DNA of 64,000 nucleotides, from NCBI GenBank assembly GCA_002261195.1, contig MVBO01000038.1, positions 1 through 64,000 of the forward strand, read 5' to 3'. A program made the position numbers and the translations under genes. The notes beneath the pieces were generated by a model, which made no database searches, was not told the DNA's origin, and saw only the letters and a list, made by a program, of their open reading frames with translations. This document shows positions 48,274-59,845 of the stretch, in pieces; positions within the stretch are counted from its first letter, which is position 1, and every line of letters starts with the position of its first letter. The DNA is from Bifiguratus adelaidae. Lineage: Eukaryota > Mucoromycota > Endogonomycetes > Endogonales.

Positions 48274-50458
48274 TCATTGCCATATCTTAATGGTTCTATC
48301 CGCACATCCAGTGATCAAACATCCGTCTCCCAAGGTCATGGCATGGACGAACCCTGTTCATTGCATGGGAAATGATCTCTTGAGTAGAGCCTTATCTTAC
48401 TTACCTCGATGACCTTTTAGTGTCGCAGTACATTCGCCTGCACTGCCGTGAGCGATGTCGACCATGGCTCTCATGTCCCAACGTTTGATAGTATGGTCGA
48501 AACTGGCGCTGAAAAGTTCGCCTTGAGTGTATTCGAGTTTCCAGACCTCCCAACTATGCCCACTTAGCGTTTGGGCCGCTTGGAAAGTGGCATTACAGTT
48601 CGGTACTGTGCTCACTGCTGATCCTGTTGTCGCGACTCTCTCGTCATAGACGTGTATGATGGCATCGTACGTGGAAGCAAACAACATGTGGTCTCCATAG
48701 GCAAGATCGAGGACTTCGGAGGAGTGTGATGTGATAGTAGATAGCACTTGACCTGATGAAATATCCCAAATCTTGAGGTAGCGAGTTACTTTATCATGTT
48801 TTGGGACGTGCGTGCTCTATCTTACCTTGATGGTCTTATCTGAAGCTCCTGTCGCTATGCGATTGCGATCAATGCTCACGACCGAGTTTATACCGTCGTC
48901 ATGCCCCGTCAACGTCGCATTGCAGATCAGATCGGAAGCACTCCATATCTGAGGGCAATTGAATGAATTAGTGTCGAACATGAATACCGCCTCGGCTAAT
49001 TGCTCTTTACCTTGACGGTACGATCGGATGAGACAGAGAAGAGAAAGTCTTCGCGGGTAACTAACCCGTACACTTTGCCACTGTGCTCTACAAGAGCCTC
49101 AATCGGTTCAACATCCGGAGAGCATAACGCATCCAGATCCCAGGCCTGCATATTGTCATTCCTTGAGCTACAGAGTCGATTCACTGACCTTGATGATACC
49201 ATCAGAACCGGCGCTAAACAACCTTCTTGTGGCATCAGAGACTGCCAAAGCCCATACAGAGATGTCGTGCCCACTACAGCTTCCAGGCATAGCTCCATCA
49301 TCACAGTTGAAAATCTCCACAAACATTACCAACGCATTCCCGACCATGCTAAAGTACAAGCGGCTTACCTTTATGCTTCCATCATGTGCGCCAGCATAGA
49401 TCCAGTCGTTGTAAAATACGACAGATGTGACGCCACAATTGTGGTGTGAGATGGTTCGGCTGCATTTAATCTCGCCATGCGGCCAGGTCTGAGAAAGCAA
49501 CGCGTCAGATGAATGGCATGCAATAAGACCATTCACTACCTCCTCTTTTTCGTTCATAATTTCTGCATCCTCGCTAACAGTCGCATTCATCTGCAAAGCT
49601 ATCAAGTTATCTGATGCCTATCAGCGACCGAGATTAGCGCAAGTGTGCAGCCACCAGACTCTGCTACATACCGAAGACTTTCTTCTTGCAGATAGCTTCA
49701 GCATTGCCTTTAATTTAGAAATCTCGCGATCTTGTGTCTAAAAAGGTGACAGTTAGACCCTTGTGATTTTCAGACATGACTGCGGAAGCATACCTCGACC
49801 ATTTGCGATAGCTCCTCTAACTTTTCATTCGTCGCGAGGATGAATCCTTTCATCTTCTCAAAAGGACAAGTGGCCAAATGCTCTACAGATGACAAGACAG
49901 TACCTAACATGGCAAACATCCATGTGAGTTTTTGCGGGAACAATACAATCAGCCACTTACCGGTAAAAGTACATCCTATGTCAGCATGCATACATTTATC
50001 TGAGCTGTAGCCACATATGCGAACATGGTCTTCAATCGCATCATAGCGTATCTTTGAACCGCATCCATTGGATCGAAAAGGACAATAGACTTCCAACTCG
50101 GCAACGAGGTTTTCAACAATCAAGTTGGCATGTAGATCTATCACAGAATTTTTGAAGACTGCTCTGTGAGGATCAGCGTGCGCAAGCATCCTACCTCCAA
50201 TAGTGATACTCGCTCGACAAAGTGGACACACCTTCTCCATTTGTAGACACTGATATATACACGCTGCACAGAATGTATGGTTGCAACTTGTAGTTATGAG
50301 TGGGTCTGTAAATACACTATGACAGCTATAAGACCGTTAGCGTCAGGTCATAAGGTCTATCAACTTGTAACATACACTGGACAAAACAGAGACTGAGACG
50401 GTTGTTCGGCGAACTCAATGTCGTCAATGAGCTCGGGAAGCTTTCGACTTTCGGGCAT
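48274..50458 (-). CDS. RING, TRAF zinc finger and WD40 protein (TRAF7-like E3 ligase)
   Basis: Start MPESRKLPELIDD at 50458. After splicing, a complete C3HC4 RING is formed: CPVC, then CNHTFCAAC, then CPLC. TRAF-type zinc fingers follow (CPFRSNGCGSKIRYDAIEDH, HLATCPFEKMKGF), then a short coiled coil (ATNEKLEELSQMVE) and about seven WD40 repeats to the end (SCSGHDISVWAL, AGSDGIIKV, SVSSDRTVKV, ITGCADRTIKIWQ). This order matches animal TRAF7 and some plant and protist E3 ligases. Substrates cannot be inferred. At least eight introns. Confidence 0.87.
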
Positions 50459-50593
50459 GCCTCAACTGAACCCTTCTTTTTGTACAGCTAAGTCGCAATT
50501 AGACGTGGGTGGCAAGATTCATGGCAACGTGTGATGTAAGAAGCACAAGGATGCACGCGACCAAGATCTCTATTCCCAAATTCGTACATACAG

Positions 50594-53500
50594 TCACTGC
50601 GGTCCAACTCTGACTTTGATCACCAGTGGATTCTTTTTCACCTTCTTCGCTTCCCTTTCTTCCACCTGTCTCGCGAATTCATCACGTAATACCTTTGCCG
50701 ATAGAGACACAGGATGATCTTCACCGTTGAATTTGAAAGAGTTTTCCCAGATCTGATCCATGTCACGCTTCAAGTCGTCAAACGATGGATATCGGCCAGT
50801 TTTGAGCTTTCGTTCCCTGTTGACATGTCCATCAATGTCCAGCTCAATGAATTACTTGATCATTACTTACACTGTTGAGAGATCCATTGGGCGATCAATC
50901 ACCTCCAAGTAGTTTGGAATACCTAATGCTTCGGGATCAACTGGTTGATTGAATGCCATTGCATTAGGGTTTTTCCTCAATGACTGCACGATGGAAAGGT
51001 AAGGAGCGGCGTCAAAGTGTGGTGCAGGACGCTTTGGCTGAGCGGGTTTCGGGCTTTCTTTGGGTGTTTCCGGTTGTGACTGGGCTAGTGTCCATTCGCG
51101 TGCAAAGATTGTCTCCAAGGCTTTGCCTTCATTGGTGACATGTGAGTCTGGGCCATTGTAAGTGTAGCAATTCTGAAAAATCAATTTGACGTCGTCGTAA
51201 AATGCTTGAGGAGTTTCGTATTGGCCTTTGTCCAATTTGCTCTTTACAGTCAAGAGGTCCATTGGGTTTCTGTGTAACAGCAGATTGAATAAGTGGCAAG
51301 CATCATATGCAATGATGTTGTTACTCACTTGATGACATCAAAATAGTTGGGTATATTCAGGGCAACCGGATCGACTGGGTTTGCAAAATAAATGCCGTGC
51401 TTTGACGAGGTGAGTTTTCGTAGGATATTTCGATATCGTTTTACAACGTCTTGAGGAAGTTTGTTTTGGGTTGAGTCGGCGGAGGATATTGGTTTTGGTG
51501 TGGATGTCTGCAGATTGGGCTTTTTTACAACAATAGACATATTCGAGGTGGTACCGTTCGGTATCTTTATGCCGTTGGCTTGCTCTTGCTTTTGCTGATC
51601 TTGGAATTTCTGCCATTCGCTTTCAAAAATAGCTTCCAGAGTCTTGCCTTCTTGATGGACGTATGAACCTTCCGGATTGTAGGTGTAGCAATTGTTGAAC
51701 ACCAATTTGACGTCATTATAGAATTCATTGGCACTTCCGTACCGGTTGTCGTCGAGCTTCTGCTTGATGCTACCAAGGTCCATTGGATTCCTTAAAAAGG
51801 ACGGTTAGCTAACCGGACTGCCACTGCATGGATACCACTTACTTGATGACATCGAAATAATCGGGGATATTGAGCGCTATAGGATCCACCGGTTGCTGAA
51901 AATTTAGGGAATGCTTCGACGCGAAGAGCTTGCGAATGATCGCACGACAGCCTTTGACAGCTTCCTTGGGCATGGTTGTGTCCGAGATAACTGGTACACG
52001 TATTTTCGGCGATGCTAAAAGTCAAGCCGTAAACAAATGATTGATATTCCGTGCAAAGCAACTCACCTTTCGCTGCTGGACCTCCGTTCTTTTCTGCAAT
52101 GGTGATATTGTCTCCCGAATCAACCTCGGCCGACCCGAAGGAACTCCAAGCTCTTTCGAAAACTGCTTCCAATGCTTTACCCTCCTGATGTACATATGTG
52201 TCCGGCGGATTGAACAGGTAACAGTTTGAGAATATGAGTTTCACGTCATCATGAAATTCTGAAGGTGAGGCGTATCCACCGCGCTCAAGTTTTGTTTTGA
52301 TGGTGGCAAGATCCATAGGATTTCTGATCAAGCAGGATTAGTTTGAGGCTGATCCACCTAAAGCACGTTTACTCACTTGACGATCTCATAATAGTTGGGG
52401 ACATTGAGTGCGACAGGATCTACAGGGTTCTGAAAGAGGAAGGAATGCTTTGATGCCACTACCTTGCGAAGGAGATTGCGACAACGCTTGACATTGTCCA
52501 TTGACATGCGTTCTGACGGCCTTTTAGCTTCGATGGTGGGTGTTTTGATTACGGGTGGGGACGGTTTCTCTGGCATTATCGCTGTAGCCAGGAATGGTGT
52601 GACATGGTTGTCCAGATGATCTTGACCTAATTCATTGGTAGGTGTACGCTCCTGAAAGATGAAAATGGATCAGAATCGGTTCATTATCGCTAGCACGAAG
52701 CGAAACTCACTGAGAGCGAAGGTATCCTTATCTTCACCGTGCGACCAGCGGCTTCTGTCGGCTTGTAGAGCATTTCACACATCAGTATCAGGTACTTCCT
52801 CTTGCGATGCGGCAGATGTTCAGTCGGGTCGCTTTTAGCGTAGTGTTAGCTGCCATTTGGAATACGGAATCAAGCTTACTTTAGCGTCTGCCATATCAAA
52901 TTCTGAAGGGTAAGATTCCCCAACAGCAACTTGCGCATTTGCAATATGCCAGAACGAAAAGCGGCTTCTTGCTCCTGTGCTTCGTTGCGTCGCACGATTG
53001 CAGAGCCTTCTTCTTCAATCAGCGCATCCATGGCTCTCCGTGTGTAGCCCTCGTGCGCTTTGCTCATCAACAGGGCCAAAGACTCAACAAGCATTTTCGA
53101 GAGAGAATAGGCGACATACTGAGACCGATCATGTCGGATAGTGTCGAAGAAATATACAAGGAGGTCGTCATTATCCAAACCGGTCAACAGCAATAGACTT
53201 GTTAAGACGGAGAGACGGATACCCAGATAATTTCCATACCTATCCAAGTAATCTCGTTAGGCAAGGCATGTTCGTTGATAGGTTTTCTGAACTTACCGGG
53301 CTCGTTGAAGGAACAGGCCCAAGTCTTTGTCCAGTCGTCCCGTAAGCATGCACTTTGTAAATGTCTAGTACGAGGAAAATCACACAATTAGCATTCTGTT
53401 AACGTCAGTCTGTCAACTATCGCCGTACCTGTAAACAACTGATGGTGATGGTATTGTGGAAAGATGGAATCATGTAATCGAGTGTCCGATAGCGCTCAAT

Positions 53501-56500
53501 CTCGTGACAAGCAGCGTTGAAAATCTCATCGCGTTGTGCGATATACTTTTCGTCCATGCCAACGTCTTGATCGCGCGGGAGTGCCGTGAGCGCATTTCCC
53601 ATAGCGGTTATTAATGTGCTAACATAGTAATTATCCGAGAACTACAAATATGGTTTATTGTGAGAATGGTATCTCGCAATAAATCTATCATCCAACTTAC
53701 CACGTTGCCTGTGTTATCATTGTACTTTAGCAAGTCCAGCAGCAGTCTCTGCACTGGCAACGGACATTGCCCTCTGTCGTCGCGAATTTGACTAAGTGCG
53801 ATCGGGATAGCCTTCTGTACATAATATTCCGTCAAGGTGGAGAAATCGTTCGGTTTCGGGACGCAAACGACGATGGGTAGTTCATCGTCTGCAAAGGAGT
53901 CTGCCGCTGTTGAATAGCAGAAAGAACGTTGAAAGGTCTTCGTTAGCTGCAACAGGCCAACCCAGCGCAATGCAGGAGTTGCGCATTTCGCAAGCGTATA
54001 TGCCGCTTCCATGCGAATGCGATAAAAGCACTTTGGATCCAAGAGTGCTCTCAGTAGACTTGTTGACGTCGGCAGTGAAGGCATAGAAGATAATGCTTGT
54101 AGAGCGTCGTATTGCGCTACCACATCTCGATCCTTCGTCAATTGTGAGGCCCACATGTAGTCCGGTTGCTCGAAATTCATGACGCAGATCCATTCGAACT
54201 CGGCATCCATTCGAATCCAATCAAACGTCGCGCTCGCAGCTCCACTCGTGTCTTCTTCCGTTTGGCCCCATTCAACTAGACGCCAGGCTATCCGCTCGTT
54301 CTCGTCTTCAAACGTCGGCATACCCAGTCCAAACATAGGTATCATGCCCGGAAGGTTTGTGTCACCTTCTTCACCATCAGCAAGATCTTCTTCTGCAGCG
54401 GCGGCAGCGGCCGCTGCTTGCTTCGCTTGGAAACGTTTCGTATTTCGCCGAATACGCTTATACTTGGTGTTGAACTGTACTTCAAACTTTTTGTTGCTCT
54501 CCTGAATGTCCAAAATATGCTCGTACGGAGTACCATCAGCCTCATGGATTCTAGCTGTAAGGTTGCCGGTGAAAAGCGGAGTGACTGTGGCCGTGGTTGA
54601 AAGGGTGTTTTCGGAAAGTGCTTGCGCTGAGATATCCACGAACCCAAGATTCGTAGTTTCCTGTCTCATGGTAAACTCCACCACCATCTTCTTGCGATTG
54701 AAGTGATATGAGAAAAAGAATACTGGACATCCACTACCATAGATCCATTGATCGGCAAAAGCCTTGTTGTCAAAACCGCTGACTTTTCGACACATCCGCA
54801 AGAACCAGTGAGTACCGAGACTAATAAGTTCCCCACTCATCGCTGAAACAAGTATCTTGGGTATAATGCGCGATAATCCCAGCGATGAGCCATCTTTGCA
54901 CATTCTGTTGTTCAGCATCCACAATACTAGCGGGCCTTTGAGCGATATGAAGTCCAGATCATCTGGATCAAGAGGGATAGGGAGTTGAGTGTTGTAAATT
55001 GGGGGTCTGCCTTTGTCTAGAGCACAACAGCGGTTGATATCCTGTGAGAACATAAATTGAGCAAAGATTCGCCTCCAAGGTACTCATTATACTACCTTAC
55101 GGAGGCGCAAACGGTATTCGTTATTGCCAAAATGCTTGCGCATAAAAACACCACTTATATACCGTGCTAGTCCTGATACCAACCAAAAGTCCGGCCAGAT
55201 TCTGGGGGTGATGTGTATACCAAACCACTGAGTGGCAAGTGCTAAAGTCAGCTCTCGCCGAGTTTCGTATACTTGGTCAATGATATCAGCCGAATGCAGA
55301 AACGTCGTACTGTTGTAATGGAAACCCATAAATAAAAAAGGATTAAGTCGATAGGCATATTTGCACTGACCTGCAAAGCGCTAAAGAAGCTGAGGACATC
55401 ATAGGGCTCCATGCGTCTTCAATGAAGACCATCTTGTAGTCAGAATAAGGGTATGAACCGTATTCTTGCGAGAAAAAAGCAAGAGCCTAAATTATGTCAG
55501 AGCATGGCACAAAGAAATACAGTCTACAAGTTACTTACCCGCATAATGAACTGACAAGACTCAGTGATTTCCTCGCGCGCTCCTGGAAGAGCAAAGGCAT
55601 AGACGCTCGGAAGCGAGGCAATATTGAAGGTCTTTTCCTTGATATCCATCTCTGCATCCTCTCGCACGTTGTTAAACCACGACAACGAGGTTGGAGAGAA
55701 CTTGACGACCTCGAACGGTCCAACGGCAAATGAGATATATGGAGCGGCGGTGGGAACCGTCAAGAGATAATGGACAATCTTCTTGTCCAGCTGGGTTGGA
55801 TGGCTTGTCTAATGAAGGAATTAGCCTAGTGATGTGAAATGATTACCGGAACCACACCTGCTCTATCAGCTCTCCGCTACATATAACATTCATATCAATG
55901 ATCCCACCATCACTTGTGATCTCATCGTCCAGATCGCTGTCTGGGTCATGATGATAAGCCTTTGGAACTATGAACTCCATTTCCCATGTGCAACGCTCTG
56001 ATATCTTGTCGACACAAGGAAGCCACAAGCGCGTTGCGCCAGGCACTGGTTCATTAACGGTATACATGTGACGGAATCTCTGTCAGAATGCAATTGTTAG
56101 GCACCTTATCCTTGTGAGCACCTTCATGCCCATTTGCATTACTCACATCTGGCGCCGCGATGGGATCTGGCTCGACAAACACGACACCAGATTGGGGATT
56201 GACTACCTCAAATTCAATCTTGACAATGATGGGAGGATACTGAACGGTAACCATAGGTCCCTGGCCAGTTTCAGTGCCATCTGCCATAATCACTAACATA
56301 ACGATAAGCTAATATGATCAATACCGCGATTATTGGTGCCTAACCATCTTGAATCCCCTTTTCCGGTGCTTCCAGTACTTGCTTGACTTCTCCATTACTC
56401 TTTCGGATATGCGAAGATAGGTCAGACGCTTATTCCGTGATCTTAAACGACTTACGTTGTGACTAGAGGGAATGAGGTGTTGCGGTAACCGAATGCTTAA

Positions 56501-57020
56501 TTCCCCCTCGTCAGATGCTTGGAGAGCGGACAGATAACGTCGCCGGTATTCCTGATGATGATGGACAGATCCTTTGCCGGGACCGAAAGGCACTTCCAAT
56601 AAAGGATCTCTATGCTCATGCTGAGCGACCTGGCCTTCAATGTGCACCGAATGAATTTCTACAAGAATAAGCATGCCACTTAGCAAGCTTGACCCATGCG
56701 GGGACTACTCTGCTTACTGCATTGCCTTGCGTTCAGTCTGATCTCGCTAATGCCCTCCCGAAGCGGGACAATGGTCAATTCAGCAAAGCCCTATAATGTA
56801 TCGTGTTAACGGCCGTACCACAAACCGTGAAGGCTGAATCGAAGCGACGACTTACCCAGAGCCGTTTCTCATTCAAGTCTACATCGAGTACAAAGCGTTC
56901 GTGACTCGTATAAGGCGACAAGAGACAAGATTAGCGCGAGTACAGCATGCGAAACCATTCTTTCAATACTTATAATCTGAAGTCCTGGCCTTTGACTTCT
57001 CCTCTTGTAGCAGCGGACAT
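50594..57020 (-). CDS. TAF2: TFIID subunit TAF2 fused to four C-terminal bromodomains
   Basis: The N-terminal 1,150 or so residues are TAF2: HERFVLDVDLNEKRLWGFAEL, the M1-aminopeptidase fold without its zinc site (LALATQWFGIHITPRIWPDFW; no HEXXH) and GSGCPVFFFSYHFNRKK. The usual end (RKYLILMCEMLYKP, RTVKIRIPS) splices in frame to a linker and four bromodomains at about 52500-52130, 51985-51630, 51450-51090 and 51000-50700. Each has the PVDPxAL, NPMDL or RPMDL, and acetyl-lysine-pocket Asn motifs (NCYLFN, NCYTYN, NCYTYN, NSFKFN). TAF2 binds the Initiator; the bromodomains would tether TFIID to acetylated histones. The first exon is unresolved: an ATG exists at 57020, but the obvious splice puts a TAA at the junction. 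Confidence 0.85.
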
Positions 57021-57243: not shown

Positions 57244-58349
57244 ATGAAGGTAGGTTGGGATGCATGATACATAGGAATCTGGATGGCGTGGTACGTCGGA
57301 TGATGTGGATAGAGTGTGCTGCAGCGATGAAACTCGGGTGAAAAAGGATGGATGGACGTGATGAGCTTGTAGGATGGACGGATCAACGACATATCCGTCG
57401 AGGTATACGTCCATCCGATGATGTATCATCTCCTCTTTGCCAGCTGCATCAATAGCAGACACCCACCATACCCCCAGAGAATGCATCCAGGTATAGGAGG
57501 CATACAGGACAGATGAGCTAACGTCGTGACTCTTCATCAGTTGAACATCGCCAACCCAGCCACTGGCTTGCAAAAGACCATCGACATTGAAGATGAGCGT
57601 CGTGTGTATGTATTGTGCTAGCGGCTTACGCAAGATCGTGGTGCCTTTTCATGACTGAGATGCTGATGAACCATTCCCACAGGCGTGTCTTCTATGACAA
57701 GCGTATGTCCGCTGAAGTTCCCGGTGACTCCGTCGGTGACGAGTTCAAGGGCTACGTTTTCCGCATCACTGGTGGAAATGACAAGCAAGGTTTCCCCATG
57801 AAGCAAGGTGTTCTTTTGCCTCACCGTGTCAGACTTTTGTTGTCCGAGGGACACTCCTGCTACCGACCCCGTCGTGCCGGTGAACGCAAGAGAAAGTCCG
57901 TCCGTGGTTGCATTGTCGGACCTGACTTGGCCGTCTTGTCTCTTGTCATTGTCAAGCAAGGCGAGAACGATATTCCCGGACTTACTGACAGCGCCGTTCC
58001 CAAGCGTCTCGGCCCTAAGCGTGCCAACCACATTCGCAAGTTCTTCAACTTGAGCAAGGAGGATGATGTTAGAAAGTTTGTCATTCGCCGTGAAGTCAAG
58101 CCTAAGAACCCCGAAAAGAAACCCTACACCAAGGCTCCCAAGATTCAACGTCTTATCACCCCTGCCCGTCTGCAACGCAAGAGACAGAACATCCTCGCCA
58201 AGCGTAGACGTGCTGAAGCCTCCAAGGAAGCTGCCGCCGAGTACTCTGCTTTGTTGGCCAAGCGCGTAAAGGAGGCTAAAGAGCGCAAGGACGACCTCAA
58301 GAAGAGACGCACGTCTTCCATGCAAAAGAGCGCCTCCAAGTCTGCTTAA
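57244..58349 (+). CDS. RPS6: 40S ribosomal protein eS6
   Basis: Three exons: 57244-57249 (ATGAAG only), 57541-57605 and 57683-58349, giving 245 residues. Motifs: [68 protein letters not shown] and a basic C-terminal helix with [16 protein letters not shown]. That tail includes the paired serines phosphorylated downstream of TOR. The first intron is 291 bases, among the longest here, as is common in ribosomal protein genes. Confidence 0.96.
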
Positions 58350-58600: not shown

Positions 58601-59845
58601 TTACAAAGTGTTGACGTTTCCAAGGTCCTTGCAGGCTTGTTGGACACGTTTTATCAGGCTTTGCTCACCAGCGCGGATCCAGACACGAGGATCGTAGTAC
58701 TTCTTATTGGGCTTGTCCTCGCCCTCAGGGTTACCGACTTGGGATTGCAAATAAGCCTTCTTGCTCTCGTAAAAGTCCTTGATGCCTTGCCAGTAAGCCC
58801 ATTGGGTGTCGGTATCCACGTTCATCTTGACAACGCCATTGCTCACGGCGGTCTTGATCTCTTCCTCAGTGGAACCGGAGCCACCGTGGAAGACAAAGAA
58901 GACGGGTTTGTCATTCTTGGCCTTGGAGCCGAGCTGCTCCTTGACGTAAGCTTGGTGCTTGCCAAGGAGTTCAGGATGAAGCTTGACATTGCCGGGCTTG
59001 TAAACACCGTGAACGTTACCGAAAGCGGCAGCGATGGTGAAAAGATCTGTCACTTGAGAGAAGGCCTTGTAGATATCCCAGATATCCTCGGGTTGCGTGT
59101 AGAGAGCGGCGGACTCAACATCCTCATTGTTGACACCATCCTCTTCACCACCAGTGATACCAATCTCCATTTCCAACAAGCACTTCATAGGAGCCATGCG
59201 CTTCAAGTATTTTGTGCAAATCTCAATATTTTCCTCTTTGGACTCTTCTGACAAATCGAGCATGTGGGAGGAGAAGAGGGGCTCGCCGTGCTCCTTGAAG
59301 TAGGCCTCGTCGGCTTCGAGCATGCCGTCGAACCAGGGAAGTAACTTCTTGGCGCAGTGGTCAGAGTGGATCACAACGGGAATACCGTAGGCAGGGGCAA
59401 CCTCGCGAATATACTGATGGGGAAAGATGAATACTGATCTTGAATTTACGACGTACCCGGATGGGCAAGAGCACTCACCTTGGCTCCAGCAATAGCTCCC
59501 AAGATGGATGCCTCTTGGTTCTTGTTGGGAAGTCCCTTACCAGCAAAGAAAGCAGATCCGCCGTTAGAGAATTGAATGATGATGGGCGCTTTGACGTCAC
59601 GAGCAGCTTCGAGCACAGCGTTGATGGTGCTAAGCACAGAGATTGAGTTGAGCGCAACCATCGACACGCTGCCCTTACCTGGTAGAAGTGCAGTTGACAG
59701 CGGGAATGGCAAAGTTGTGCTCTTGAGCTAAAGACAACGTTCAGCAGACGGATCGAAAACGAGCGCTCTACATACCATAGTCAAACAATTTGCGAAGGTT
59801 ATCGCCAGTGACGACACCAGGAGGAACAATATCAGCAAGACCCAT
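58601..59845 (-). CDS. FBA1: Fructose-bisphosphate aldolase, class II
   Basis: Start MGLADIVPPGVVTGDNL at 59845, four exons. Motifs: FSNGGSAFFAGKGL, PVVIHSDHCAKKLLPW (zinc ligands HSDHC), LEMEIGITGGEEDGV, AAFGNVHGVY with a further zinc His, and FVFHGGSGSTEEEI. It is the glycolytic and gluconeogenic zinc aldolase of fungi. The last exon is long and strongly codon-biased (CTC, AAG, GTC), as expected for a very highly expressed gene. Confidence 0.96.

Follow-up and report, generated by a model that had tools for sequence, protein, structure and literature searches.

Gene structure of the TAF2 locus

The window, that is, the whole 64,000-nucleotide stretch of DNA that was analysed, carries on its minus strand (56906..50594) a gene which, when spliced by hand, reads through 20 exons and 19 GT..AG introns (48-67 nt) as a single open frame ending in a TGA codon. 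Counting a probable exon 1 at 57020, the predicted product is a TAF2 fusion protein of approximately 1757 residues, in which the hand splice and Pfam place a TAF2 core, a linker, four bromodomains and a C-terminal tip, in this order (Table 1). The Peptidase_M1, TAF2_3rd and TPR_TAF2_C domains follow one another as in TAF2, all three above the curated cut-offs; the relatives of the protein carry the same TAF2 domains, and its best PDB match is Taf2. A genome search with the TPR_TAF2_C profile returned two matches, both inside this gene, and a second copy of TAF2 in the genome was ruled out, the TAF2 profile matching one locus only. The bromodomain profile (PF00439) likewise scores above its curated cut-off, with four stretches reaching 291 bits together (E 1.6e-88) and being found exon by exon as well; a DUF7877 match (46 bits) overlaps the fourth. 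The first ~15 residues and their junction are uncertain, exon 1 having no canonical donor that joins it to exon 2. Relatives suggest that exon 1 is joined across 57020-56906 despite the missing canonical donor, with a sequencing error or an unusual intron as possible causes.

Table 1. Features of the TAF2-bromodomain gene and of the genes next to it. Coordinates are those of the window.
Feature	Residues	Position	Strand	Basis and remarks
Putative exon 1, beginning MSAATRGEVKGQDFR		56976..57020	-	ATG at 57020; resembles the start of the Umbelopsis relative P0014; without canonical donor
TAF2 core, exons 2-15	~16-1162	52711..56906	-	Splice and Pfam
Peptidase_M1-like segment	350-461	55096..55544	-	Pfam, 32 bits; spans introns
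TAF2_3rd Ig-like domain	564-754	54163..54735	-	Pfam, 106 bits
TPR_TAF2_C repeats	755-1065	53050..54162	-	Pfam, 201 bits; spans introns
Fusion-junction intron, 59 nt, phase 0		52652..52710	-	Splice; TCA/GTGAGT..TTTCAG/GAG; in-frame stop if retained
Linker, TAF2 core to bromodomain 1		52511..52651	-	Splice
Bromodomain 1	1210-1316	52137..52510	-	Splice and Pfam; phase-2 intron 52376-52324 at IVK/NPMDL
Bromodomain 2	1353-1459	51604..51976	-	Splice and Pfam; phase-2 intron 51842-51791 at VIK/NPMDL
Bromodomain 3	1507-1613	51083..51462	-	Splice and Pfam; phase-2 intron 51328-51270 at VIK/NPMDL
Bromodomain 4, divergent	1636-1742	50642..51016	-	Splice and Pfam; intron 50870-50817 elsewhere (STV/ERK)
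C-terminal tip LVIKVRV	1748-1754	50606..50626	-	ET-binding consensus; absent from database model P0001
Stop codon TGA		50594..50596	-	Splice
Ribosomal protein S6e gene		57597-58349	+	Head to head with TAF2
Class II fructose-bisphosphate aldolase gene		58601-59536	-	After the S6e gene

The fusion requires splicing of the junction intron, because its retention would add six residues (VSFASC) and then bring a stop. The earlier note on this DNA had described a TAF2 running in frame into four bromodomains. The splice and the Pfam assignment bear this out, as do the bromodomains seen in 119 of the best 120 of 402 matches; the TAF2-bromodomain fusion is confirmed. Two of the junctions given there needed amendment in their residues, the frame being maintained at both: the one written LK/NDPTEHL reads LNDPTEHL across a split codon (AA/C), with no K, and the one written LSLS/ERTPT reads PSLS/ERTPT, in phase 0. 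The third, IVK/NPMDL in bromodomain 1, had been read correctly, with the phase-2 intron listed in Table 1.

The best database match, P0001 (BZG36_02242, 99% identical), comes from Bifiguratus adelaidae (Mucoromycota, Endogonales) and matches the hand splice over the fusion junction. Its start lies immediately ahead of exon 4, inside what the hand splice reads as an intron, and it joins exons 5 and 6 with four additional residues. At the 3' end it lacks the final 15 residues of the hand reading, the ET-motif tip included, and runs into a RING/TRAF-zinc-finger WD40 gene and an HD-domain (ppGpp hydrolase-like) gene (48817-50594, minus strand). The outer ends of this model were taken to be wrong, since a stop codon closes the hand-spliced frame and the RING gene has a possible ATG of its own.

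Bromodomain type, acetyl-lysine pocket and C-terminal tip

Bromodomains 1-3 are 59-60% identical to one another and have their intron at the same place and in the same phase (IVK or VIK / NPMDL), which points to their origin by tandem duplication; bromodomain 4 differs from them and has its intron elsewhere. Compared with BET bromodomains, bromodomains 1-3 reach identities of 47-55% at best; with those of TAF1 they reach 37-41%, and with six others from this genome 33-41%. For bromodomain 4 the corresponding values are 40, 34 and 34%. The best single-domain match of bromodomain 2 in the PDB is bromodomain 2 of Candida albicans Bdf1 (102.6 bits), and for bromodomain 4 the single-domain chains are led by a bromodomain from C. 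glabrata (61 bits), followed by CREBBP (60 bits); whole-chain scores put the multi-bromodomain polybromo-1 and BRD4 first, as several domains add up in them. The TAF2 bromodomains are BET-like. The fusion protein itself is not a BET protein, a family marked by two bromodomains and an ET (NET) domain: Pfam found no PF17035 in it. The NET domain occurs in the genome only at C254, C226, C112 and C66, and three free BET loci encode two bromodomains and an ET domain each.

In a poorly resolved bromodomain tree (70 rows, 103 columns, 31 of 67 inner branches open), the TAF2 bromodomains do not form one group, seven changes being needed (the starred branches force three), and BET copies fall among them, so that more than one capture of bromodomains by TAF2 is possible. 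Bromodomain 4 of the window has a long branch and is placed next to one of this genome's own BET copies. The TAF1 bromodomains stand largely apart, and the tree was used as weak support for keeping them separate.

To compare the acetyl-lysine pocket, 436 TAF2 bromodomain copies, drawn from the window protein and P0002-P0120 (120 sequences), were aligned. The acetyl-lysine-anchoring position holds Asn in 423 of the 434 copies with a residue there (Thr in ten, Ser in one, missing in two), and the ZA-loop Tyr is kept in all 433 copies in which the residue is present (missing in three). Both residues, which we take to correspond to N140 and Y97 of BRD4, are present in all four bromodomains of the window; the 11 copies without the pocket Asn are all first bromodomains, eight of them from Ustilaginomycotina. 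We infer that the TAF2 arm would bind acetylated histones.

The fusion protein ends, as read, in ...NPLVIKVRVGPQ, and the LVIKVRV within this end fits the pattern Phi-x-Phi-+-Phi-+-Phi and is a putative ET ligand. The pattern is given as the consensus of peptides bound by the Taf14 ET domain in the available text of PMC7442819, and a Saccharomyces cerevisiae Taf2 tail of such a type binds Taf14, according to the available parts of PMC9177701 and PMC7442819. When the last 40 residues were searched for the strict motif (best 120 proteins of each set), it was found in 3 of 120 non-yeast relatives (0.33 when shuffled) and in 24 of 120 yeast-type TAF2 proteins (0.35). A shorter form, Phi-+-Phi-+-Phi, within the last 15 residues, was found in 6 of 120 (shuffled, 0.3) and 93 of 120 (2.6), respectively, counts that are exploratory, as this form was picked after the tails had been viewed, and that kinship among the yeasts inflates on their side. 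The six non-yeast proteins are those of the window, Jimgerdemannia, Podila, Mortierella claussenii, Calcarisporiella and Spizellomyces; the Basidiomycota among the best 120 of 402 have no tip motif, and some of the non-yeast models are partial. In many yeast-type TAF2 proteins the basic-hydrophobic motif sits at the very last residues.

Distribution of bromodomains on TAF2 and TAF1 among fungi

A search with the full protein, bromodomains included, gave 402 matches, of which the best 120 were examined, a ranking that favours proteins with bromodomains; groups were taken from organism names. A bromodomain profile, made from the window's four copies and then iterated on the relatives, gave at least two matches (range, 2-7) behind the TAF2 core in 119 of these 120 relatives, the sole exception, P0048, being a partial model of 1274 aa. 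Among these best 120 of 402, three bromodomains each were counted in 61 proteins of Basidiomycota and in nine further relatives without group, and four to six in Mucorales, Umbelopsis, Endogonales and Mortierellomycota, except for P0048, for P0018 (a model marked low quality, with seven matches, three of them partial) and for P0044 (a partial model with two). Calcarisporiella has two, Tieghemiomyces three, Dispira four and Spizellomyces five. The fusion is common to relatives in several fungal phyla, and its restriction to Bifiguratus or to Mucoromycota was ruled out on the same grounds.

Two TAF2 proteins occur in some Mucorales, namely Dichotomocladium (P0004/P0019), Zychaea (P0006/P0037) and Sporodiniella (P0033/P0043), with six and four bromodomains in the first two and four and four in the third. 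The Spizellomyces model (P0052) opens with an unrelated part that resembles the renin receptor N-terminal domain, just under the cut-off, and is probably a merged model.

Two relatives labelled 'lgn' have contigs barely longer than their reading frames: P0054 has a 1829-codon ORF on 5660 nt, with ~170 nt left for introns and ends, and P0095 a 1833-codon ORF on 5783 nt, with ~280 nt left; a third relative is less tight (1812 codons on 6673 nt). We infer that the contigs of P0054 and P0095 are cDNA, which would fit a single transcript if their genes have introns as here.

In a search with the Komagataella phaffii Taf2 core as query, in which the named matches are budding yeasts, none of the best 120 of 1374 proteins had a bromodomain, either by Pfam label or by our own profile. 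Across the protein searches (best 120 each of 402, 1374 and 612), the named matches comprise no TAF2 of Pezizomycotina, Taphrinomycotina or Pucciniomycotina, nor of chytrids beyond Spizellomyces. The TAF2-bromodomain architecture is widespread in non-yeast fungi, and bromodomains are absent from TAF2 of the sampled budding yeasts.

The TAF1 core of this genome is located at C229:3199-4554, and its zinc-knuckle open frame ends in a stop. The first 7 kb of C229 yielded no bromodomain, and the genome search lists none on this contig. The earlier note had seen the TAF2 arm as a second acetyl-histone contact of TFIID, whose known bromodomains it placed on TAF1 or on Bdf1. This part of its reading changes: because TAF1 of this genome shows no bromodomain, TAF2 supplies the bromodomains rather than a second set of them, and between the two subunits they are found on TAF2 only. 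Among fungal TAF1 proteins (best 120 of 612, some of them partial models, with groups taken from names), 23 of 120 carry a bromodomain, namely 21 of the 22 Mortierellomycota and both Glomeromycota, and it is single in these models (P0277-P0306, P0314, P0323). The other 97, some partial, have none, the 22nd Mortierellomycota model included. Mortierellomycota have bromodomains on both TAF1 and TAF2. This distribution suggests that the TAF1 bromodomain was lost within the fungi, perhaps more than once.

Comparison with known systems and interpretation

Like the protein of the window, K. phaffii Taf2 (6hqa) and human TAF2 consist of an M1-aminopeptidase-like core followed by Ig-like and repeat domains, and the alignment with K. 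phaffii Taf2 covers residues 157-1045 of the predicted protein. In Komagataella, the protein P0121 has IKLKLKF at its end, which belongs to the same class of motif as the LVIKVRV tip. Human TAF2 in the PDB, with 1199 residues, has no room for a bromodomain array of this kind behind the core. Bdf1 and other BET proteins share the bromodomain type (Bdf1 is the best single-domain match of bromodomain 2, and BRD4 scores high), but they are separate proteins that combine two bromodomains with an ET domain, whereas here the bromodomains lie within TAF2, together with a putative ET ligand and without an ET domain. The double bromodomain of TAF1 (1EQF, 3UV5) is likewise part of a large TFIID subunit, although of another subunit and of another type, with lower identity to the window, and it was not found on TAF1 here. 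Taf14 on the Taf2 C-terminus of S. cerevisiae also places an acyl-lysine reader at the TAF2 arm, through the same class of terminal motif, but as a YEATS reader in trans rather than as bromodomains in cis (available parts of PMC9177701 and PMC7442819).

Judging from its domains, the gene quite probably encodes a TFIID subunit TAF2 with an in-cis acetyl-lysine reader arm, made of four BET-type bromodomains and an ET-docking tip. Within TFIID, TAF2 belongs to the lobe in contact with the downstream part of the promoter DNA. From a core promoter, the TAF2 arm would reach the neighbouring nucleosome and hold its acetylated histone tails, a grip that would help TFIID to load where promoters are acetylated; the tip, for its part, may bind a protein with an ET domain. 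The TAF2 of S. cerevisiae is of the type without the array, and its tip recruits the YEATS reader Taf14 in trans. A point against this reading is that the free BET proteins could assist TFIID in the manner of yeast Bdf1, so that the arm would be less needed.

It is scarcely credible that two adjacent genes, one for TAF2 and one for a four-bromodomain protein, were wrongly joined, with a transcript end at ~52700 and a second start before bromodomain 1. The early stop that a retained 59-nt junction intron would bring, the presence in exon 16 of an ATG that precedes bromodomain 1, and the merging of genes by local gene models, as of P0001 with the RING/WD40 gene, all speak for such an error; however, the junction intron has ordinary splice sites, the contigs of P0054 and P0095 look like transcripts, and separate genes were rejected because bromodomains follow the TAF2 core in all but one of the 120 best relatives out of 402. 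A transfer of the bromodomains from TAF1 to TAF2 is very improbable as well. It would agree with their presence on TAF2 and their absence from TAF1, both in this genome and in 97 of 120 fungal TAF1 proteins (some partial; best 120 of 612), but the TAF2 bromodomains are closer to BET than to TAF1 in identity and PDB match, TAF1 bromodomains stand apart in the (poorly resolved) tree, and Mortierellomycota carry bromodomains on both subunits; this origin was rejected on the PDB matches, the tree and the identities.

The alternative that the fusion protein is made, but that its arm serves chiefly to read acetylated proteins other than histones (transcription factors or TFIID subunits) or as a structural spacer for the ET-binding tip, is unlikely, though less so than the two readings above. 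An array length that varies from two to six (seven in one low-quality model) across the best 120 of 402 relatives would fit a loose spacer, and the tip is common in yeasts without TAF2 bromodomains; yet nearly all copies retain the acetyl-lysine pocket, something that a spacer alone could do without.

As for the history of the TAF2 arm, we tentatively suggest, with somewhat less than even confidence, that in fungi it was ancestrally an acetyl-reader module, a BET-type array with an ET-docking tip, and took over from the TAF1 bromodomain, with Mortierellomycota as a stage of overlap. Toward the budding yeasts the array would have been lost and the tip kept, recruiting Taf14, and possibly BET proteins, in trans, so that yeast TFIID would be derived. 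Models of chromatin reading by TFIID rest on animals (TAF1 bromodomains and the TAF3 PHD finger) and on budding yeast (Bdf1, and Taf14 in trans). What is added here, beside the docking of Taf14 in yeast, is the predicted presence of bromodomains on the TAF2 tail itself in many other fungi, and if these carry several acetyl readers on TAF2, this would be a third solution for chromatin reading by TFIID. Such a solution would explain the reader-docking tail of yeast TAF2 and would make the view of Bdf1 as the 'missing piece' of yeast TFIID testable by comparison of lineages. TAF2 could also be a BET-type target behind the effects of BET inhibitors in fungi.

Among the open-literature papers listed, none describes bromodomains on TAF2 in its title or abstract, although a 2019 review of TFIID evolution (Antonova et al.) may mention them; the architecture is already present in public databases under automatic names. 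The Cryptococcus neoformans protein CNAG_03273, mentioned in passing in the available text of PMC12844337 as a TAF2 ortholog and a tBLASTn match through its bromodomain, with no remark on a bromodomain in TAF2, probably has the same TAF2-bromodomain architecture, since a TAF2 ortholog was matched there through a bromodomain.
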